From positions 130,763-194,762 of the forward strand of contig VXPE01000036.1 in the NCBI GenBank assembly GCA_009839745.1: DNA of 64,000 nt, written 5' to 3'. Shown one piece after another: positions 1,388 through 61,363 of this stretch. Under the pieces are notes generated by a model. It made no database searches. It saw only the letters and a program-made list of their open reading frames with translations, and was not told the DNA's origin. Each line of letters begins with the position of its first letter. The stretch's first letter is position 1. The position numbers and the translations under genes are program-made. Origin of the DNA: Candidatus Poribacteria bacterium (GTDB lineage: Bacteria > Poribacteria > WGA-4E > WGA-3G).

Positions 1388-2812
1388 ATGCCGCAGCAGG
1401 AGGAACATCTCCGAGATTATCTTCACCTCATTCGAAAGCATGATTTCACACTTTGTCTGAGCGTCTTGTTGGTATTAGGAACCGCCCTGATTGTTTCACT
1501 CCGTTTGCCTAAAACGTATGCCGCCTCCACTTTAATGTTACTTGTCCAACCCAATACAACGTCCGCCTTGCCTTCAACGAATCTGTTTCAAAGCGTCCTC
1601 TCTGGCGGTGTTGATCGGCGGGAAATGGAGACAATCAGTGCTCGATTTTCCACAGAATCAATGCTAAAAACGGCAATCGAAAACCTGGAAGAGAATGGCG
1701 ATGTTGAAGGGGCTTCTCTCCTTCCGCCGGTAGGTAAACTCAAACGGATGCTGCAGGCGCAGCTGAATCCGGACTCCGACTATATCAATCTTTCGATTGC
1801 TTTGACCGAGGCGGAGGGTGGGGAACGCAATGCTGCGCTCCTTGTTAACCAACTCGTAGAGGACATGAAAACATTGAGGCGTGGAGATGAAGAAACAAAA
1901 CTTAAAAGACGGATGGAATTTCTTGAAAGTAAACGACGAGAAATTCAGATCGAAATCGAGAAAGATTTAGACGTTCTCCTCCGATTTGCTCGCCAGAATG
2001 GAAGCCCAGAAACATGGGTTCCGACGCTTACGAATCTGCTTGAACGACATGCCAGTATCCGGGAAAGACTTCAAACGAACCAGCAGCAGCTGCATGCGAC
2101 GCGTGTTCACATTTCATATCTACAGGAACAACTAAAACTTTTACCCGAGCAGACGCAGCTGTCAGAGACGACCTCCTACGATCCCGTTTGGCTTTTTCAG
2201 CAAGAGAAACTTTTCAACCTTGAATCCCAACGTGTTGGGGATGCAGAAAAGGTAGGTCAGACTGCCTCAGAATTGAAGGGTCTCGATGCTCAAATTGCGG
2301 AAATCCGCAAAAAAAACGCTCAAACCTCCCCCACAGCTACCACCGTTACGTCCGGCACCTCTGTCCATCATACTTATATAAAGAATCAGTTGTTGACCTT
2401 TGTTCCGAGTGTCCCGCGTTATGAACACGCTGCTGAACACCTGAAGCAGGAACTTCAGACATTGGAAACTGAATTGACGCAAATGCTGGAACAGATTCCA
2501 GAAAACCAGATAATTCTCACGCAGATGGGAGCTAAGATTCAGAAAACCAATGAACTCGCTGAAGAGATTGCGAAACGGTCTCTTGAAGTTGAAATATTAT
2601 ATGCTGAATCCAAGTTAAATACGGCTCGCAACCAGTTAGGGGGTATTGAAATCATTGACCGTGCGGTACCGAGAAAAATTCCGGTGAGTCCCCAACTGAG
2701 ATTTATCTTGGTCATCGCGGGAATCGCCGGTTTGTCCTTAGGTGTTACGATTGCCTTGTTTACGGAATATTTCAATAAAAGTCCTGAACATCCAAAAGAC
2801 TCGGTGTCTTAA
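1388..2812 (+). CDS. Wzz/GumC-like polysaccharide chain-length determinant
   Basis: 474 aa from the ATG at 1388. The frame stays open upstream to a TTG at 1331 right behind the previous gene, but MPQQEEHLRDYL is the usual N-terminus for this family. Domains: cytoplasmic start, transmembrane helix 1 (LCLSVLLVLGTALIVSL, about residues 22-38), a long periplasmic region with heptad-rich coiled coil (about 150-400), a second transmembrane helix (about 440-462) preceded by the Pro-rich motif RKIPVSPQLR, and a short tail. No Walker A motif follows, so it is the polymerase-co-regulator type without a fused tyrosine kinase. Such proteins set the length of O-antigen or exopolysaccharide in the inner membrane. 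No glycan genes are adjacent. Confidence 0.8.
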   Translation: MPQQEEHLRDYLHLIRKHDFTLCLSVLLVLGTALIVSLRLPKTYAASTLMLLVQPNTTSALPSTNLFQSVLSGGVDRREMETISARFSTESMLKTAIENLEENGDVEGASLLPPVGKLKRMLQAQLNPDSDYINLSIALTEAEGGERNAALLVNQLVEDMKTLRRGDEETKLKRRMEFLESKRREIQIEIEKDLDVLLRFARQNGSPETWVPTLTNLLERHASIRERLQTNQQQLHATRVHISYLQEQLKLLPEQTQLSETTSYDPVWLFQQEKLFNLESQRVGDAEKVGQTASELKGLDAQIAEIRKKNAQTSPTATTVTSGTSVHHTYIKNQLLTFVPSVPRYEHAAEHLKQELQTLETELTQMLEQIPENQIILTQMGAKIQKTNELAEEIAKRSLEVEILYAESKLNTARNQLGGIEIIDRAVPRKIPVSPQLRFILVIAGIAGLSLGVTIALFTEYFNKSPEHPKDSVS

Positions 2813-3673
2813 GTTCAAAGTTTACAGCCGAATTTTCGGGGTCAGGCACTTGTATTAACATCAGTTTGAAAAAAAAATGTCAATTTTTCTTAAAATGTAG
2901 TATAATTATAATACGCCTAATGTGCAGCGGTGCATGACGTGTTCGCTGCCATTGTGAGGATATTTACAAAATTTATACGAGGACTCACTAATATTTTTTT
3001 CGGGTCCTATGCCAACACAACTTATTACTCATTTGCTATTGTCTTCGGACGTTTTCAGGAGGCGGTAGTTATCAAACCGATCCTCATATTAAGGATGCTC
3101 TATCCAGCGCAGTGTTCTGTGGGATAATTACTTGGGTGTATGCAGGAGTGATGTGTAACCCGCGATCCATCCTTAAAATGGGCGAAAAACCGAAAATAAG
3201 ATGGTGCTGATATAATTAAACTTGAAAAATATGATGTTTGTGGTATGATTATGTGAAATTACCACCCCAATGCATGCGTTTTTTCTGTTAAAAACTTGAC
3301 AGAAATTTGAATCAGTGCTATTTTAAAATGCTAAGAACAGTTTTGTGGGTATTTTATCACCTGTTTATTGAGAATTCCCGCAAAACGAACCCTTAATTCG
3401 TTGGAAGGAGATTTGCTTTTTACATGCTTCGTTCGGTGTTCGCAATTTTTGGATACCCACGTGGCAGTAACGAAAAAGAACAAAGTTGAAGTAATGTTGG
3501 TTTTATTAACGAGATTTTGGGCTTTTCGTTTACATTATAATAAAGCGGTTCTCATCCATTTTTAAGGTTTTTTGTCGGAAACCGAGGTAGGGACAGCGAA
3601 ACGAGAAAACTCACATCGCGGTTCCGTCGCCCAAACATCCGATTCATTATTTCCAAGGAGGAAAAACAAAGTA
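2813..3673. other. Intergenic region, AT-rich, no convincing gene
   Basis: About 860 bases separate the Wzz-like gene from the large outer-membrane-protein gene. Short open frames exist (for example 2930-3127 and 3368-3565) but lack ribosome-binding sites and ordinary composition. The right half holds two candidate sigma-70 promoters reading rightward: TTGAAA 3222-3227 / TATGAT 3244-3249 (spacer 16) and the stronger one at 3296-3324. The last 250 bases would be an untranslated leader. Nothing else was recognised. Confidence 0.6.
3296..3324 (+). promoter_or_regulatory. Sigma-70 promoter for the outer-membrane protein gene
   Basis: TTGACA at 3296-3301 and TATTTT at 3319-3324 with a 17-base spacer, in AT-rich DNA. 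It lies about 350 bases upstream of the ATG at 3674, implying a long leader. Confidence 0.6.
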
Positions 3674-6600
3674 ATGAACAGGCTAAAACAATCATTTGAT
3701 GTTTTACTTGTAGCGACCTGTATCCTGAGTGCTTTTGTGCTTTACGGTTGTGGTGCACAGAGCCTTGGTCCACAAGAGCCCCTATTGCCAACAATTGAGG
3801 GGAGTTCTAAATTTTCAGCACGGTTCCAGCTGGAAGAAGAACCACAGTTCTTCTATGACCTGTTTGGAAAAGAGCTGCTTGAGGGTAACGAGGTCTATAA
3901 CTATATTGAGGAGAAAGAGTTTGACCAAGCTGGTACATTGATTGTTGGTCGGACCGGTCAGTTGGATAGTGAAAGATTCTCAGCGCAGCTGGATAGAACC
4001 GTCTTGACAGAAGACAGTTTCCGTGGTAGATATACCGAGTTCGCTATTGGCGATAGCATGCGTTTTAAGCCCTCTACACTGTTCCCGAACCGCTACATCC
4101 TCTACAAAACAGAGTTTGATGGACTTCGTTGGGATATTTCTTTTGCCCAAGAACGGCACCTTTTCACGCTGATTAACTCACGTATTTCAAACCCAGTTCA
4201 GTTGACAGACGCAGCGGCGAACCTTGCACCGACGCTCGGACGTCGGAACGGTTTAAATGAAGATGCTGGCGTTCGGCATATTGAAAACGCACGCCTCATG
4301 GGTTTCCGAGCCCAAGGGCTTTTGGGCGACATTTTCCGAGTTGGGTTTACTTATGTCAACCTTCATAAAGAGCATCCCGAACGCGTTGAAAACCCGATTA
4401 TGGGTACGGTAGCAAATACACCGCCAGAGACAATCACAGTTGTTTTCCGCGATGATTCGCCTGAAGATAATTATGATGTTGCGGCACTTCAGAGCGACTA
4501 CCCCCAATACCGTGCCTTTGATAAGGACCAACACAGCGATTATATTCAAGGGGGTGTCGGTGCGGCTTTCAAGCAGATGACAGCGACCGTCATCACGCAA
4601 GAGTTGGAAGACTTAACACCCGAAGAAGTTGAAGATGGTGTTGAACCGAAAGCACAACCCGCACAAACGCAAAAGATTGACATCTTCTCGAATGATGTTA
4701 CTCCGATCGACGTCGGCGGACTTCCGTCTGAGATTCGGACATCTGGGGATTGGGCAATTGTGGACGGCTTCCATAAAATGAAGTACGATCTCGTCTTTGC
4801 CGACCATGACATTGATCCACGCACTGTTCAATCAGTCGTTTTTGACATGGTCGTCGCGGGTGATTATAATATCGCCGTTATCGGATTCAGTGATGCGAAC
4901 AAGGCGGCTGAAGGTGCGGATCCGTTCGTTGAAGAATGGATTAAAACCGAGGATGGTCACATTGAAATGCCATACCGCGATGTGATTCAGGCACCCGGTA
5001 ACTATGGACAGGACTCGGATTACACGCAGAACCGGGCTGCTCGTTACGATAACCCAGATAGCTGGACAGGTGACGGCAGACCGCGTAAAATTCGTTATCG
5101 TTACGGCGCGGCACGTGCGGCACTTCTCTACGGACTGGATTTAGAAGGCACTGTCGGCAACGTTTTCGTTCGTGCACACTACTCGATCAACGGTAAATAT
5201 AAGCAGTATCCGACGATCCCTAAAGATCAGACCGGATTTAGTAGACTTACACCCACGATTATAGGCGAGGATGGCGAGGAAGAAACCGGTATCTCCATCT
5301 CCCCGGAAACAGGCTTGCCCTTAGATCGGAACGGTGTGCCGACCTATTCAGAGACACAAGGTGAGCGGTTTGAAGCCAGGTTGGGTGGTGACGGAACCGA
5401 CGAGAGCGGCGACGGAGAAATGGGCAGAGAAACCGCCTGGTTCGTCCAACTCAAATCTCGCTTTGGAAAGTTATACCTTGAAGGTGTCTACTACCACATT
5501 GATCCCGGTTACACCACAACCTATCTCAACTTCGGTGCCAACACCGACAGAGACCAGCCCTACTCGCTGGAACGAACCCCTGAATCTCAGGCTGAAAGAG
5601 ATCCGTGGGATGAAGTTAATTACGCCCTCATTGAAGATGATGATGATGATGACGATTGGCCCGATGATATTGACTTTGACGGAGTCCTGCCACGTGCTGA
5701 TGACAGAGACCAGAACGGTGTTTTGGACTTCCAAGAAGACTTCCTCATCTTTGATGCCGATCCGCCGGTGTTTACCGACCTTGTTGATCTGAACAACAAC
5801 GGCACTATTGATTCTCTTGAGGACGATTTTGAACCGCAATATGAGTACGGGGTAGACAGGCAAGGATTCCACGGCTTCGCTGAATATGACCTCCTTGATA
5901 ACCTTTCTGTCAAAGTTGGGTGGCTCAATGAAAGAGAAGTTTCAAGCCGCCGGAAGAACGATTCCAAATATCTACATGTCACCTATCAACGTGACATCCC
6001 CGATTTCGGAACCGTGCTTTTCCAAAACCGTTTCGTCCGAGTCCAAGACGATATTCCAGATTACACCATTACACTGCGTGTCGGTGAATTGGAACCTGTC
6101 CAAATTTCCGATGAGCTGGATTTCTACAACGCTCGCGTGAATACGACAACGCTACAGTTCCTCTACACCGCGGTTCCGAATCTCACGCTTGAAGCGAAGT
6201 TCCTCGTGGTGCTCCAAAAACAATTCGAGCAGGATGAGGAAGGCGCGATCTTCCGAGATATTGAAGGATCAGGCGATGAAGCCGATCCGCTCAACGCCGA
6301 TCAACGCGCAGACTTCATGGTGCCCCTTGAACAGGTTCGAGCCTCTGGTGACAAACGGGAATTCCCGTTCTATCCAGATCACGGCATTAACGCCCTGAAT
6401 CCTGAGGATCCGGGCTTAATCTATGATCAAGGTAACTGGAAGCCACGTCGTTATCCGGAACGGGATATTCGTAATCAGCAGACGATTCTCAAAGCCAGAT
6501 ACGAGATTCCGCTTGGCGACCTTCCCTTCATCGACAGAATCGGTGAAGATTTGACGCTTACACCGATGGTGAAGTACATTTGGGACCGCGCTTTCGATCG

Positions 6601-7012
6601 CGGTGCCGAGGAAATTGGGGATGCCCTCAATCCCAGGCAATTTGTACCTACTGATACCGAACCTATCGAATACTTGCGTTTCAACCGTAGAAGTCGTGAA
6701 GATGTTCTCGGTGTCCGGCTTGATTATCAGTTCACGCAAAGAATGAACATTCTTGGTGGTTTCCAGTATAGGAAATTCACGAACCGGGATAATAACTTCA
6801 AACAATATTTGACGAACTTCCCGGAAGATGAGGATGTACCCGTCCTTTTCCGACCGGACCTGCGAACTCGGATATTTGAAGTCCAGGCAATCAACCGTGG
6901 TGAATGGCTTGGGTTTAACATTGTTATCCTCGCTGGCTACCGGCGAACCACCATCCTGCTTGACCACACGACGAGTAATACGACGTTTGTGCGAGCAATG
7001 ATGGGTTTCTAA
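3674..7012 (+). CDS. Large outer-membrane-type lipoprotein with two EF-hand loops
   Basis: 1112 aa from the ATG at 3674, preceded by AAGGAGG (the open frame extends back to a TTG at 3572). The N-terminus is a signal with the lipobox-like LYGCG (Cys near residue 26). Most of the protein has alternating short hydrophobic/aromatic strands ending in a strand-like C-terminus (TTFVRAMMGF), as in outer-membrane barrels. An acidic insert near residues 650-720 contains two canonical EF-hand loops: DRDQNGVLDFQE (677-688) and DLNNNGTIDSLE (705-716), each with ligands at positions 1, 3, 5, 9 and 12. Calcium binding is therefore likely. The ExbB/ExbD genes follow, but no TonB box or plug domain was seen, so a TonB-dependent receptor role is not claimed. 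Confidence 0.65.
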   Translation: MNRLKQSFDVLLVATCILSAFVLYGCGAQSLGPQEPLLPTIEGSSKFSARFQLEEEPQFFYDLFGKELLEGNEVYNYIEEKEFDQAGTLIVGRTGQLDSERFSAQLDRTVLTEDSFRGRYTEFAIGDSMRFKPSTLFPNRYILYKTEFDGLRWDISFAQERHLFTLINSRISNPVQLTDAAANLAPTLGRRNGLNEDAGVRHIENARLMGFRAQGLLGDIFRVGFTYVNLHKEHPERVENPIMGTVANTPPETITVVFRDDSPEDNYDVAALQSDYPQYRAFDKDQHSDYIQGGVGAAFKQMTATVITQELEDLTPEEVEDGVEPKAQPAQTQKIDIFSNDVTPIDVGGLPSEIRTSGDWAIVDGFHKMKYDLVFADHDIDPRTVQSVVFDMVVAGDYNIAVIGFSDANKAAEGADPFVEEWIKTEDGHIEMPYRDVIQAPGNYGQDSDYTQNRAARYDNPDSWTGDGRPRKIRYRYGAARAALLYGLDLEGTVGNVFVRAHYSINGKYKQYPTIPKDQTGFSRLTPTIIGEDGEEETGISISPETGLPLDRNGVPTYSETQGERFEARLGGDGTDESGDGEMGRETAWFVQLKSRFGKLYLEGVYYHIDPGYTTTYLNFGANTDRDQPYSLERTPESQAERDPWDEVNYALIEDDDDDDDWPDDIDFDGVLPRADDRDQNGVLDFQEDFLIFDADPPVFTDLVDLNNNGTIDSLEDDFEPQYEYGVDRQGFHGFAEYDLLDNLSVKVGWLNEREVSSRRKNDSKYLHVTYQRDIPDFGTVLFQNRFVRVQDDIPDYTITLRVGELEPVQISDELDFYNARVNTTTLQFLYTAVPNLTLEAKFLVVLQKQFEQDEEGAIFRDIEGSGDEADPLNADQRADFMVPLEQVRASGDKREFPFYPDHGINALNPEDPGLIYDQGNWKPRRYPERDIRNQQTILKARYEIPLGDLPFIDRIGEDLTLTPMVKYIWDRAFDRGAEEIGDALNPRQFVPTDTEPIEYLRFNRRSREDVLGVRLDYQFTQRMNILGGFQYRKFTNRDNNFKQYLTNFPEDEDVPVLFRPDLRTRIFEVQAINRGEWLGFNIVILAGYRRTTILLDHTTSNTTFVRAMMGF

Positions 7013-7023
7013 ATGGTGTTTGG

Positions 7024-7056
7024 ATCGCTGGACACGACGAAATCGTGTCCAGCGAT
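7024..7056 (+). terminator. Perfect stem-loop after the outer-membrane protein gene
   Basis: A perfect 14-bp stem (arms 7024-7037 and 7043-7056, core TCGCTGGACACGA) with a 5-base loop lies 12 bases after the stop codon. The T-run is weak, so it may act as an RNA-end stabiliser as well as a terminator. The remaining sequence to 7333 is AT-rich and contains nothing else I can name. Confidence 0.75.
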
Positions 7057-7333
7057 TTCGCGTCTCGCTATATCACCTGTTTTTCCATTTTCCGTAAGGT
7101 TTGAATATAAGACGTAACTTCTTAAACACTCAGGTGTTATTAACGAGAATGGTGTTTAAACGGTGGGCGTGGTTTTTGATCGCTCTTACCCGACCTAAAA
7201 ACTTCTGTATTTTTTGAATTGCTCACGTGTTAGCAAAATTGAGTTGTTGGGCGAATTCCGACAACATCTTATGAGATGACTTGTAAAACTTGCCAGTGTA
7301 TTTGGTAAGTTATCCTAAGGAGGATCAGAACGA

Positions 7334-56321: not shown

Positions 56322-57435
56322 ATACGATATTCTGTTAGCAACGATTGCTGTGGGTTTTTGTCTCTGGGCGACATATACCGATATGAGAACCGGGAAAATA
56401 AAAAATGCCTGTTCTATTGGGTTGTTATACGCGGGTGTGATTTCACAAGTGATGTTCCTGCTGCTCGAGAAAACAATCATTAGCGCAAGCCTCTCTGTTT
56501 TTATCATCGGTGGGATCATCGCCTTCGGAAGTTACTGGCTGGGGATCCTTGCCCCCGGAGATGCGAAACTCTATTGGGGAATTGTCATGATATTGCCCCC
56601 TTCTGTCTGGGGTAGAAACCTTTCTGCGTTTCCGAACCCCGCATTGATTATCTTAGTGAATATGTTCAGTGTCTATTTGGTGTATAGTCTCATCCATACA
56701 GGGATCAAGTATTTCACGTTACACAAGACGTTCGCACTTCCGAGAGCGCTTCCTGTTAAGGAATTCATACAACAACTCCCGGAAAATCTCTTGTCCTTGC
56801 TCCGTTTTTTGGCGATCCTGCTCTGTGTAGAATTCTTCGCGTATCAATCGCGAAGTCAATTCACTTTTTTTCATCTCATGCTGGCAATTCTTTTATCCTA
56901 CGGACTTGACCGTGGCACGAAAAAGTTCCAGATCAAAGCCTATATTTCTTATCCCGTGTATTTCATCCCTGCGGTTGCCATTTTTATATTCTATCCTATT
57001 CTTCTATTGGCATATTGGAAAAAGTTTCTGTTGTTTGCAGTCGTCTATCGTTTGGTTCTCCCCCTCATTAGCACGTACATGCTGCAATTGGATATGTCGT
57101 GTCTGAGCACATTTGTGCCGATTGAGCAGCTTCACCCCGGTATGATTCCGGCAGAGAAGATCATCAGAACGGATACAAATGACGGAACTTTGTATAGGAA
57201 AGAGCCAGCGTTCGTTTCAGAGTCCTTTGATAAAAATGTGCTTATTTCACCTACCCCGGAAGGGTTGTCTGATGAAAGTGTTCAGGCCCTCAAGGCGTTG
57301 GGGAAGTCGGGGTGTTTTGACGATTTCGGGGGCACCTTGGCGATCCAACATTCGGTACATTTCGCACCCATCATTCTAACAGGAACGCTTCTGACGATTG
57401 TGTGTGGAGGGGTCTTTTATGCCCCAATAATTTAA
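56314..57435 (+). CDS. A24-type (prepilin peptidase-like) membrane aspartyl protease
   Basis: 373 aa; overlaps the previous gene by 8 bases with AAGGA upstream. Membrane protein with about eight to ten helices. Two Asp motifs match the A24 family: YTDMRTGKIKN (Asp 23) and LAPGDAKLYWG (Asp 83). The cytoplasmic methylation/zinc domain of PilD is absent, as in shorter A24 enzymes. A soluble C-terminal region follows (about 260-345). No pilin or type II secretion genes are near, so cleavage of a cluster-specific precursor leader is a plausible role. Tight coupling to the two RRE proteins supports a shared pathway. Confidence 0.75.
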   Translation: MSKYDILLATIAVGFCLWATYTDMRTGKIKNACSIGLLYAGVISQVMFLLLEKTIISASLSVFIIGGIIAFGSYWLGILAPGDAKLYWGIVMILPPSVWGRNLSAFPNPALIILVNMFSVYLVYSLIHTGIKYFTLHKTFALPRALPVKEFIQQLPENLLSLLRFLAILLCVEFFAYQSRSQFTFFHLMLAILLSYGLDRGTKKFQIKAYISYPVYFIPAVAIFIFYPILLLAYWKKFLLFAVVYRLVLPLISTYMLQLDMSCLSTFVPIEQLHPGMIPAEKIIRTDTNDGTLYRKEPAFVSESFDKNVLISPTPEGLSDESVQALKALGKSGCFDDFGGTLAIQHSVHFAPIILTGTLLTIVCGGVFYAPII

Positions 57436-57586
57436 GAGCGTTGCCTTTTGGACAGGGCACCTTATTGTTCCAAGCGTAAGTAGACTCAGAAGGTGAGTTT
57501 TCGACTCGCATAGTGTTTGCTAGCTATAGGTTGACATGTCCAGTTTTATGAGGTTTTTAGGACACCTCGTTAATTCTGCCCTATTT

Positions 57587-57602
57587 TGTGCAATCTGGCA
57601 CA
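57587..57602 (+). promoter_or_regulatory. Dyad/enhancer-like site (TGT-N10-ACA)
   Basis: TTGTGC-AATCTG-GCACAA (57586-57603) is a perfect dyad and contains TGT-N10-ACA, the spacing of NifA-type upstream activating sites. It lies about 90 bases upstream of the sigma-54 -24 box, a suitable position for an enhancer-binding activator. Confidence 0.5.
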
Positions 57603-57676
57603 ATGGTCTGTCCGAATTGGATCCGGAAGTTATGTTCTTTCTGTAGAGTTCCCCGTACGCAGGGTATTCGCGAAAT

Positions 57677-57693
57677 TGGCACGAAACTTGCTA
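57677..57693 (+). promoter_or_regulatory. Sigma-54 promoter
   Basis: TGGCACG-AAAC-TTGCTA (57677-57693) matches the -24/-12 sigma-54 consensus with correct spacing between GG and GC. It lies about 57 bases upstream of the PD40 gene start. The region 57436-57676 otherwise holds the dyad and no gene. Confidence 0.82.
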
Positions 57694-57750
57694 TAGTCGG
57701 ACACAAATGAATCTGGAAGAATCTCAATGACATAAATAGAGGGTATAAAA

Positions 57751-58728
57751 ATGAAAAGAATACTTGCCTATATTGTAGTGTCGGGAACGGCACTACTCTT
57801 CGGGCATTTCTGGATCCCGTTGAACCTGTCTGTCTATGCAGTCGATGTTCGGTATATTGCTTTTAGTTCCAATCGGAGTGGAAATTATGACATCTACATG
57901 ATCGATATAAATGGTGAAAATCTCCAGAATATAACAAACCACCCAGCGAATGATTCTGCACCCACATTTTCGCCGGACGGACAGCGGATGGCTTATGTTT
58001 CCTCTCGGGGCGGCGATTGGGACATTTATGTGATGAATCTCAGGACAAAGGTATCCGAGCAGTTGACGGATCATCCCGGACAGGACGAGGGGCCCGCATG
58101 GTCTCCAGATGGACGATGGATTGCATTTAATTCTGATAGAGCCGGGATAGATAATATTTACAAAATCGCGCCCAGTGGTGCAAATCTCCAACAGTTGACG
58201 CACGGGGATCAGAAGAACATAACCCCGTCTTGGTCCCCTGATAGCCAATTCATCGCACTTCGTTCTTCCGGAGTCCGTCTTGGATCTCCCTCGAGCATCT
58301 CTATAATAGATGCGGATGGAGGTAATCTCAGCAGGCTCAAAAACCAACCCAGCGAGCACGTATATATGCCCGCATGGTCTCCGGATGGCAAACGAATCGC
58401 CTTTAGTGCGAATTTAGGAGGAAACGTGGATATCTACACCGTAAACGTTGACGGGAGTGATCTCAGACGGATCACTCGCCATACGGCACTGGATTCGTCG
58501 CCCGCTTGGCACCCGGATGGACACGCTTTTATTTTTTCTTCCATGTGGGACCAAAAGTTTGCCATCTATCGCATAGATGTGGCGGGCACCAATCGCCGGC
58601 GATTGACACCCCATCGGACACAAGATTTGCATCCAACGTGGGTGCCCACAGGCTTTTTTTCAGTCTTTCCTCTGATCAACTCACAATCAGTCTTGTGGGG
58701 TAGACTCAAGCAGTCTGTCAGTGACTAA
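57751..58728 (+). CDS. Secreted PD40/TolB-like propeller protein behind the sigma-54 promoter
   Basis: 325 aa; GAGGG 7 bases before the ATG. Signal peptide about residues 1-30 (ending SVYAVD). Six regular PD40 blades with the SPDG core: FSPDGQRMAYVS, WSPDGRWIAFNS, WSPDSQFIALRS, WSPDGKRIAFSA, WHPDGHAFIFSS and a terminal half-blade. The C-terminus SQSVLWGRLKQ shares the LWGxLK tail with the two propellers at 17429 and 18442. Likely periplasmic, probably a binding partner for a peptide or enzyme of the cluster. The propeller is complete and more regular than the other two. Confidence 0.85.
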   Translation: MKRILAYIVVSGTALLFGHFWIPLNLSVYAVDVRYIAFSSNRSGNYDIYMIDINGENLQNITNHPANDSAPTFSPDGQRMAYVSSRGGDWDIYVMNLRTKVSEQLTDHPGQDEGPAWSPDGRWIAFNSDRAGIDNIYKIAPSGANLQQLTHGDQKNITPSWSPDSQFIALRSSGVRLGSPSSISIIDADGGNLSRLKNQPSEHVYMPAWSPDGKRIAFSANLGGNVDIYTVNVDGSDLRRITRHTALDSSPAWHPDGHAFIFSSMWDQKFAIYRIDVAGTNRRRLTPHRTQDLHPTWVPTGFFSVFPLINSQSVLWGRLKQSVSD

Positions 58729-59291
58729 TGGAAGTGCCTCGGAGAGCGGGAGCGTGACTCTATAGAACATTAGGGAATTACGAGTTTCCAACACCACAAA
58801 AGTTGGAAACCAAGGATGCCTGCTTATCTATTCAGGATAGGCGAAAAATAGAACAATAAAGGAGTTGTTCATAGATAGTTCTTTTTCTCTTTTTTCTATG
58901 CTTTTCTTTGTGACGGTAAACGTAGGCGTTTTGAGGAGTTCGATTCCCCTCTACCGCATTCGGTAGCGTGTGTTAAAACCAAGCACCCTGATAACAACAA
59001 AATCAGTGCTATCGAAAGGGTTCATACGCGAGTGAGACGAGCCCTGACACTATAAGGACACTCGGAAGAAGAAAAGTGGTAGCATTTCGGTGCTATGCTT
59101 TGTAGATTCCACCATACCACTCGCTCTTTTGTGGTATGCACGCCGTCCATAGTTTCTGCTTACGTGGGCAGATTATGTCGGCTATAGACAAGCTTAGGAC
59201 ACTACGGTGTCCGTAACAGGGTCTTCTAAGCCCTACAAAAATCCGTGTTTTTCTACAAAAACATTGGTTTTTATGAATAGGAGATATTTTG
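58729..59291. other. Structured intergenic region upstream of the Cys-rich peptide gene
   Basis: A 560-base stretch without a credible gene but rich in pairing: hairpin CTACCG/CGGTAG (58951-58966); a pairing of GTGGTA (near 59075) with TACCAC (near 59115); nested stems GCTTA/TAAGC around GGACAC/GTGTCC (59192-59231, loop TACG); and TGTTTTT/AAAAACA (near 59247-59266). A long, structured leader or a small RNA is possible. No consensus promoter stood out. Confidence 0.5.
58914..58958 (+). other. tRNA 3'-end-like sequence (T-arm and acceptor remnant)
   Basis: AGGAG-TTCGATT-CCCCT (58934-58950) has the shape of a tRNA T-arm with the invariant TTCGA, apart from one A-C mismatch, followed by CTACCGCA. 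A partner CGGTA lies only 34 bases upstream, so no complete tRNA is present. It may be a tRNA fragment left by integration or excision, or chance. Confidence 0.3.
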
Positions 59292-59612
59292 ATGCGAAGT
59301 CATTTACATCAACGAGTCAACCGTAAAGTCTCTCACTTTATCCTGGGTGAAGAAGGTAAAGTGGGGAGCCGGAGTGCGTTTACTGCCGCAGCCGTCATCG
59401 GTGCGACATCGTTAGCCGGAATGTTCCTCAGTCCACCTAAGGCATCTGCAGATTGGTGGTGTAGTGATATTCAATGTCATGACGACGACCAATGTTGTGG
59501 ATGTTGGGATGAGCACCTCAATGATCCCTGGGAAAACTGTACCCAAGGGGATTACGACTGCAGGAGTGCAGACTATGTTCCGACTCCAGGTATCTCTTGC
59601 TGGACAAAGTAA
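59292..59612 (+). CDS. Cys-rich precursor-like secreted protein (candidate RiPP precursor)
   Basis: 106 aa from the ATG at 59292 (AGGAG 8 bases upstream). Residues 1-53 form a long basic leader (HFILGEEGKVGSRSAF) and a hydrophobic segment (32-46) ending at an AxA site (KASA/D). The 53-residue remainder has eight Cys (57, 62, 68, 69, 71, 83, 90, 103), twelve acidic residues, few basic ones and several Trp (DWWCSDIQC, CCGCWDEHL, NDPWENC). Disulfide, thioether or glycan modification is possible; Ser and Thr are few (Ser 58, 92, 102; Thr 84, 98, 105). No family recognised. Context: two RRE-type proteins, an A24 protease and a propeller upstream. Confidence 0.75.
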   Translation: MRSHLHQRVNRKVSHFILGEEGKVGSRSAFTAAAVIGATSLAGMFLSPPKASADWWCSDIQCHDDDQCCGCWDEHLNDPWENCTQGDYDCRSADYVPTPGISCWTK

Positions 59613-59662
59613 AAGTTCAGGGTGTTGATCACCCGTTTGAAACCTCCTGAACGTTTACTTTG
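59605..59662 (+). terminator. Long hairpin overlapping the peptide-gene stop codon
   Basis: Arms 59605-59621 and 59646-59662 pair at 16 of 17 positions (outer CAAAGTAAA/TTTACTTTG, inner GTTCAGG/CCTGAAC). The TAA stop is inside the 5' arm. Likely a transcript stabiliser or attenuator that raises the precursor mRNA over the distal genes, as in many bacteriocin operons. No T-run. Confidence 0.8.
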
Positions 59663-59746
59663 CTTATGTAAGTTGGGAGATGTGCGAATGATGGAGGTTT
59701 CCATCTCTGTCAACGTCTCATCTCCCTTTTCAATGAGGAGCATCTT

Positions 59747-60031
59747 ATGTCAAAATATGGCACTTTCTATGTCGTAACAGTAAATCCGGGAGTTAGACCA
59801 GGCCGTTTAAAGAAGTTTCTGTTAACAGAATGGTTTATCGCCCTTCAGTCCACTTCAGGGTGTCTTGATGTAGAACTTTGGGAAAGCCAACGTAGTCGCG
59901 GTCGTTATTTGGTGTGTGAACTCTGGGAGAATAAAGACATCAGTCTTCAGAACTCCGAGAAACTCTGGAATGAGGAGAAGAAGGATGTCTTTGAAACACT
60001 AAACTTATACGGAACAATAAAATCCGATTAA
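59747..60031 (+). CDS. ABM-fold (antibiotic biosynthesis monooxygenase-like) small protein
   Basis: 94 aa; ribosome-binding site GAGGAG. One dimeric alpha-beta-barrel domain: strand FYVVTVNPG, helix RLKKFLLTEWFIAL, strand GCLDVELWES, strand RYLVCELWENK, helix NSEKLWNEE. Enzymes of this fold act on quinones, haem or polyketides without a metal or cofactor. Here it could modify the peptide or a redox partner, but no catalytic residues are diagnostic. It lies between the peptide gene and the cytochrome-like gene. Confidence 0.75.
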   Translation: MSKYGTFYVVTVNPGVRPGRLKKFLLTEWFIALQSTSGCLDVELWESQRSRGRYLVCELWENKDISLQNSEKLWNEEKKDVFETLNLYGTIKSD

Positions 60032-60088
60032 GACGGCACCACTCCAAAAGCCTTGCACCAAAGTTTCAGAATGTATAAAAGGAACATA

Positions 60089-61363
60089 ATGAAGAAAAAA
60101 CATCTCCTATGGATATTGCTGCTAACCGCGCTCGTGGCGACACCGCCGATCTATCACCGGTTGAGCGAGGCGCGTCGCTTAAAACAGATTAAGACAGTAA
60201 AACACGAGGCATCTCAAATCAACGCTGTTCCGTTGAACGAGTTCATGGCAAGGTTGAAGGGTGCCTCACCGGAAGAGACGTTACTCGTGCTGTATACGGG
60301 CAGCACACACGGACATCTTGAGCCGTGTGGCTGCTTCATCGGTCAATCGGGTGGGCTGCCGCGGCGTGCGACTGCACTCGCGTCTATTCGATCTCAGGGA
60401 TTTTCTCCGTTGTTGGTAGATCTGGGTGGTGTTCTCCCGACTCAAGACTCCAAGATGCAGGAGGATCTTCTGACATCTCCCAATGATGCCGTAGCCGAAA
60501 CACTTGCGCCTCCTGCGGTGCTCCCATTGGACTATCTGAGGACACAGAAGATGCTGGAATCAATGCGATTGTTGAAATATGAGGCACTCGTCCCCGATAA
60601 AGCGGATATGATTTGGGGTGAGGACGTTCTGACAGGGACACTCGCTCACCAAGCGTTTCCGATCCTTACCACCAATATTGAGGGATTCGGCGGCAATGTT
60701 CAATCTCTTCTGACCAAAAACGTGGGGAATAAAAAAGTGGCAGTGTTAGGGCTTTCATCGCTGGGACTTGAAGACACAACTCTCACGGAACTCGCCCCTC
60801 TTTTTTCTGAAATACAGAAGCAAGTCGACGTTATCGTTATCCTGAGCAATCTGTCCCCGGAAGTGAACCGGACGATAGCTGAAAAGTATCAGAGCGTTTC
60901 AGCGATTTTGAGTCCTGGAACCGGAGAAACAGAAAACGTGGGAAATGTGCTTCTCGCTTATAGTGGTGTCAACGGGGAAACCTTGGGGGCACTGCTGCTG
61001 AATGTGGGGGACACTTTAGGTGCCTCGGCACAACAAATTGCACTGACCGAGGATGTGGAAGACGACACACAAATCAGGGAACTTTTGCTGGACTTCCATA
61101 CGCAAGTCGCCACTGACCCACAATTGCAAGCGGGCGGTGAACGTCTGTTTTCTGATGAAGCACTCGAGCAGGATCCCCGAAGTGGTTACGTCGGTTCTCA
61201 GGCGTGTGCGACCTGTCACCGAAAGGAGTTTGATCAGTGGGCACACACGTCCCATGCGACCGCCTTTAATACACTCTTGACAGTAGGGAAACAGTTTTAT
61301 CCCGAATGTGTCTCCTGTCATGTCAATAGAGACGGGTTCCTTTGTAGCTACTTTTGCGTTTAG
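60089..61363 (+). CDS. UshA-like protein with C-terminal c-type haem motifs, truncated
   Basis: 424 aa from the ATG at 60089 (AAAAGGA upstream). N-terminal signal anchor (LLWILLLTALVATPPIYH). Residues about 65-330 match a 5'-nucleotidase/metallophosphatase-like layout (LLVLYTGSTHGHLEPCGC, GQSGGLPRRA). Near the C-terminus two haem-c sites appear (CATCHRKE near 379, CVSCHVNRD near 410). The protein ends 9 residues after the second site (FLCSYFCV), whereas related multihaem cytochromes continue with more CxxCH motifs, so the end looks truncated. Probably a periplasmic electron-transfer or haem-dependent enzyme. No CxxCH was seen downstream in other frames. Confidence 0.7.
   Translation: MKKKHLLWILLLTALVATPPIYHRLSEARRLKQIKTVKHEASQINAVPLNEFMARLKGASPEETLLVLYTGSTHGHLEPCGCFIGQSGGLPRRATALASIRSQGFSPLLVDLGGVLPTQDSKMQEDLLTSPNDAVAETLAPPAVLPLDYLRTQKMLESMRLLKYEALVPDKADMIWGEDVLTGTLAHQAFPILTTNIEGFGGNVQSLLTKNVGNKKVAVLGLSSLGLEDTTLTELAPLFSEIQKQVDVIVILSNLSPEVNRTIAEKYQSVSAILSPGTGETENVGNVLLAYSGVNGETLGALLLNVGDTLGASAQQIALTEDVEDDTQIRELLLDFHTQVATDPQLQAGGERLFSDEALEQDPRSGYVGSQACATCHRKEFDQWAHTSHATAFNTLLTVGKQFYPECVSCHVNRDGFLCSYFCV

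Follow-up and report, generated by a model that had tools for sequence, protein, structure and literature searches.

Activation of genes under sigma-54 is conditional and ATP-dependent, a consequence of the known behaviour of this sigma factor. Poribacteria are known mainly as symbionts of sponges; to our knowledge no member has been cultured, and a role in contact with the host has been proposed for their repeat proteins. The closest described regulatory elements are the NtrC enhancers of enteric bacteria, TGCACC(A/T)4TGGTGCA (PMC4987338). A general proposal that sigma-54 governs functions of the envelope and the bacterial exterior already exists, in a paper that leaves Poribacteria unmentioned (Francke et al. 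2011, PMC3162934). WD40, TPR and LDL-receptor repeats and phyH-like proteins have been highlighted in Poribacteria in a study that mentions neither promoters nor sigma factors (Kamke et al. 2014, PMC3909097). For Desulfovibrio, sigma-54 regulons were reconstructed comparatively from a conserved activator motif and a conserved -24/-12 site, as set out in the main text of PMC4641369, in which no TGCAC-type site was found; the logic described there is the one used here, in different organisms. Our literature search on sigma-54 in Poribacteria returned nothing relevant, apart from one unrelated paper. The mechanism considered below is known, and the motif and regulon are apparently undescribed.

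The window analysed here is the whole 64-kb stretch of DNA. The initial annotation had proposed a -24/-12 site, TGGCACG-N4-TTGCTA, ahead of a PD40 gene, together with an upstream dyad. We put the probability at about 0.85 that this element is the sigma-54 promoter of the PD40 gene and belongs to a family-wide poribacterial sigma-54 regulon working by the mechanism proposed below, a reading made from sequence comparison. The features concerned are as follows.

57577-57592, + strand: UAS1, TGCCCTATTTTGTGCA, an intact TGCMC-N6-GTGCA; best match in the window, conserved in orthologs and family-wide
57586-57603, no strand: dyad TTGTGC-N6-GCACAA, TTGTGCAATCTGGCACAA, which includes TGT-N10-ACA and overlaps the right half of UAS1
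57609-57624, + strand: UAS2 slot, TGTCCGAATTGGATCC, a degenerate second copy at the expected period and gap
57677-57692, + strand: sigma-54 -24/-12 promoter TGGCACG-N4-TTGCT, TGGCACGAAACTTGCT, from the pattern scan and conserved in orthologs
57703, + strand: predicted transcription start, about 12 bp past the GC of the -12 element (C at 57691), the standard sigma-54 spacing
57751-58728, + strand: open reading frame of the target gene, a 325-aa PD40 (TolB-like) beta-propeller (Pfam PD40, 1.9e-55)

In the pattern scan TGGCACGAAACTTGCT matched TGGCACGN4TTGCW with 0 mismatches, the sole perfect hit of the 64 kb, and comparison of orthologous promoters showed that several species keep the site in front of PD40 homologs; the proposed -24/-12 site therefore stands. 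By the sigma-54 spacing rule, a start near 57703 is expected to give a leader of about 48 nt, and a GAGGG lies 7 bases before the ATG. The predicted product appears to be exported. It is a PD40 propeller only, scoring 243.9 bits against a TolB equivalog cut-off of 343.15. No second combination of UAS and sigma-54 site scored anywhere in the window. An Rfam scan of 57400-60100 gave nothing above cut-off; a sub-threshold match to the gltS RNA at 58765-58867 (26.5 bits, cut-off 47.5) is probably due to chance. Further downstream, 59289-61363 holds a small ORF that is Cys-rich over part of its length and matches no family, followed by a UshA-like protein whose end resembles cytochrome c554.

Upstream of the -24/-12 site, UAS1 scores 27.9 bits, the highest value of the whole window, where the runner-up reaches 15.7. 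In the relatives, the orthologous PD40 promoters (L074/L087, L082 and L084) carry TGCCC-N6-GTGCA twice, one copy in L084 starting with CGCCC, and the second UAS is intact in all four loci. In the window the UAS2 slot has retained its left half and lost its right half, and it scores -9.4 bits as compared with 25.8-26.6 in the orthologs. The geometry is nevertheless that of the orthologs: a period of 32 bp and a gap of 52 bp to the -24 element, against a period of 31-32 and a gap of 52. In our reading the window promoter belongs to the regulon, but one of its two enhancer-like sites has decayed, and this probably makes it weaker or differently tuned. The collapse of the UAS2 score would also fit a former regulon promoter that is now a relic, left inactive, weak or otherwise driven; we consider this unlikely, given that UAS1 and the -24/-12 site are both perfect and that promoters with a single UAS and a good sigma-54 site exist elsewhere, for example at L124 and L129.

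Two further explanations concern the letters within and around these elements. A sigma-70 promoter with an extended -10 (TGCTATAGT; TGC-TATAGT at 57689-57697) overlaps the sigma-54 site and might be supposed to drive the PD40 gene. This is very improbable, as a simple scan finds no sigma-70-like promoter here on the + strand and the orthologs read TTGCTACC, TTGCTATCC or TTGCTACAC, so that TATAGT is not conserved and the sigma-54 letters are. Slighter still are the prospects of the dyad TTGTGC-N6-GCACAA, or of the NifA-like TGT-N10-ACA inside it, as the activator site. The strings are present as first described, but they occur at chance level: the window contains 36 exact dyads with 6-bp arms and a gap of 6, and about 0.55 dyads with 6-bp arms at gaps of 0-12 are expected per 110 bp. 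The second arm is not conserved either; GGCACAA is replaced by GGAACT or TGCGTCT in relatives, L074/L087, L082 and L084 lack the right arm in their orthologous PD40 promoters, and the ACA of the NifA-type site is gone from every orthologous promoter compared. The left arm is the right half of TGCMC-N6-GTGCA, and it is this element, offset by 9 bp from the dyad, together with its decayed copy, that takes the dyad's place as the conserved candidate activator site.

In the genome that contains the window, TGCMC-N6-GTGCA occurs in pairs 30-32 bp apart, mostly preceding sigma-54 sites. More generally the tandem period is normally 30-33 bp, and the end of the pair mostly lies 48-53 bp before the sigma-54 site. 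The strict paired pattern was found in 36 of 36 genomes of the genus, with 0 matches in the reversed control. Of 45 loci selected on the paired element alone, 40 carried a sigma-54 site (TGGCAYR-N4-TTGC, at most 1 mismatch) within 120 bp downstream, as compared with 1.9% of random positions; since near-palindromic pairs were scored in whichever direction was better, a fair control would lie at up to about 4%. The combination of UAS and promoter was present in all 58 genomes of the poribacterial family (reversed control, 0), in none of 14 genomes from three other families of the same order, and in both searched genomes of a further family of the same class (f6); outside these two families, one more genome of the phylum had a single match. 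UAS-like matches at L131, L133 and L135 lack a good sigma-54 site downstream and look like chance. A mobile repeat is disfavoured as the origin of the paired element because the pairs are followed by different genes, the stretches between the motifs have diverged and the geometry is fixed. Most other PD40 arrays that were fetched have no detectable UAS and sigma-54 promoter, so control appears to be tied to certain genes and not to all PD40 genes.

The element resembles the NtrC enhancer in having paired TGC..GCA half-sites upstream of a sigma-54 promoter, and the candidate poribacterial activators likewise carry an AAA+ domain and a Fis-type HTH. However, its inner spacing is N6 (16 bp) and not that of the symmetric 17-mer TGCAC-N7-GTGCA, its left half is usually TGCCC, and it is repeated at a strict tandem period of 30-33 bp. 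Because the spacing is one base shorter and the element usually asymmetric, we have not filed it as an NtrC site. The targets appear to differ as well: those read downstream of the motif are predicted exported proteins, and no nitrogen-assimilation gene is among them.

Pattern searches across the genome, a 5.04-Mb draft from a poribacterium, located 14 perfect -24/-12 sites, five of them the identical 16-mer TGGCACGAAACTTGCT, and 97 sites at no more than 1 mismatch against 52 in the reversed control. Although at least one of the perfect sites (L017) lies within a coding frame, a chance match in the window has a negligible probability, since orthologous promoters conserve the site and its placement relative to a conserved UAS is fixed, both in orthologs and family-wide. 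Of the perfect sites, one without a UAS precedes a groES-like gene (L015; G000:C36:50561, - strand) and two without a UAS precede an Hsp20-like gene (L026/L027; G000:C117:59473 and 59538, + strand), and chaperones may possibly be under sigma-54 control at these loci. Two further perfect sites (L014 and L019) stand before small, related, secreted-looking proteins that share a CYxxxGxWxxFC stretch, L014 being divergent from a gene for a PspF-like activator (L002).

Sigma-54 control would fall if rpoN were absent, as the initial annotation had pointed out. The genome encodes one complete RpoN of 601 aa, with all three Pfam parts (AID, CBD and DBD) and the RpoN box, and 12 matches to the sigma-54 activator domain, corresponding to about 9 intact genes. 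With this machinery present, and with site and spacing conserved in orthologs and regulon, the comparisons give good support for placing the PD40 gene under sigma-54.

Six activators have close orthologs in both genus genomes compared, and apparent orthologs of five of the six also turn up in one or more families without the motif. L005 consists of an AAA+ domain and a Fis HTH with about 160 aa between them and has no receiver. Its full-length orthologs number 51 in the 58 family genomes, with none outside, and in 12 of 13 loci checked it follows secD-secF, as it does here:

L139 (G000:C42), 2433-7161: secD, secF and L005 in a row, an arrangement found in 12 of 13 family loci

The SecF proteins of several relatives align as two pieces, as if carrying an insertion. 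Against L005 as the regulon activator, family f6 has the motif and no L005. L008 is a two-component activator with an apparent ortholog in f6, and its TonB-receptor neighbour is kept in relatives and resembles, by eye, an f6 target; against it, its orthologs also occur in genomes without the motif. Based on these distributions we regard L005 and L008 as candidate activators of the regulon.

In the mechanism we propose, RNA polymerase carrying RpoN would wait as a closed complex on the -24/-12 site. The TGCMC-N6-GTGCA sites would be recognised by an AAA+ activator through its Fis-type DNA-binding domain; there are normally two of them, separated by about three helical turns, with centres near -118 and -86. 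By way of a DNA loop, the activator would use ATP to open the complex. The exported surface proteins would thereby be switched on together. We also entertain, with considerable doubt, the idea of a dedicated surface or host-interface switch, in which the receiver-less activator beside secDF would sense the state of export or of the envelope and jointly induce secreted eukaryote-like proteins of the propeller, LamG and TPR kinds.

Among the targets in the same genome and four relatives are propellers of the WD40, YCF48, LDL-receptor-repeat and PD40 types, LamG proteins, a TPR protein, PhyH, and a VWA protein and DUF4159 proteins that each have a start judged by eye to be TonB-like. In f6 the elements precede, again by eye, an apparent DUF4159/TonB-like homolog and LamG-like, WD40-like and TonB-receptor-like proteins. 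Most targets are predicted to be exported: 32 of 34 have a hydrophobic N-terminus, as compared with 36 of 94 neighbouring ORFs, in a count that uses a crude proxy for a signal-peptide predictor and includes orthologs that are not independent, which inflates its p-value. Several are of the kinds described by Kamke et al., to which a shared control is added here. The likeness to the exterior regulons of Francke et al. lies in sigma-54 control of envelope or exterior functions, and the difference in the targets, here apparently exported proteins of the propeller, LamG and TPR kinds that share a defined enhancer. If one sigma-54 circuit with such an enhancer spans the family, co-regulated surface proteins would become predictable from sequence alone, genes of no known role could be assigned to a regulon, and the trigger of surface-protein genes could be addressed in a heterologous system.

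A TTWGxIK-like C-terminal tail (KLATTWGRIKQQ, FTTTWGEIKTE, LSTTWGEIKR) recurs in several targets and in one neighbour gene:

58660-58728 of the window: C-terminal tail of the PD40 protein, SVLWGRLKQSVSD
L275, L280, L299, L304, L308, L309, L310, L329 and L235: other tail-bearing loci

The tail is possibly a C-terminal sorting tag.
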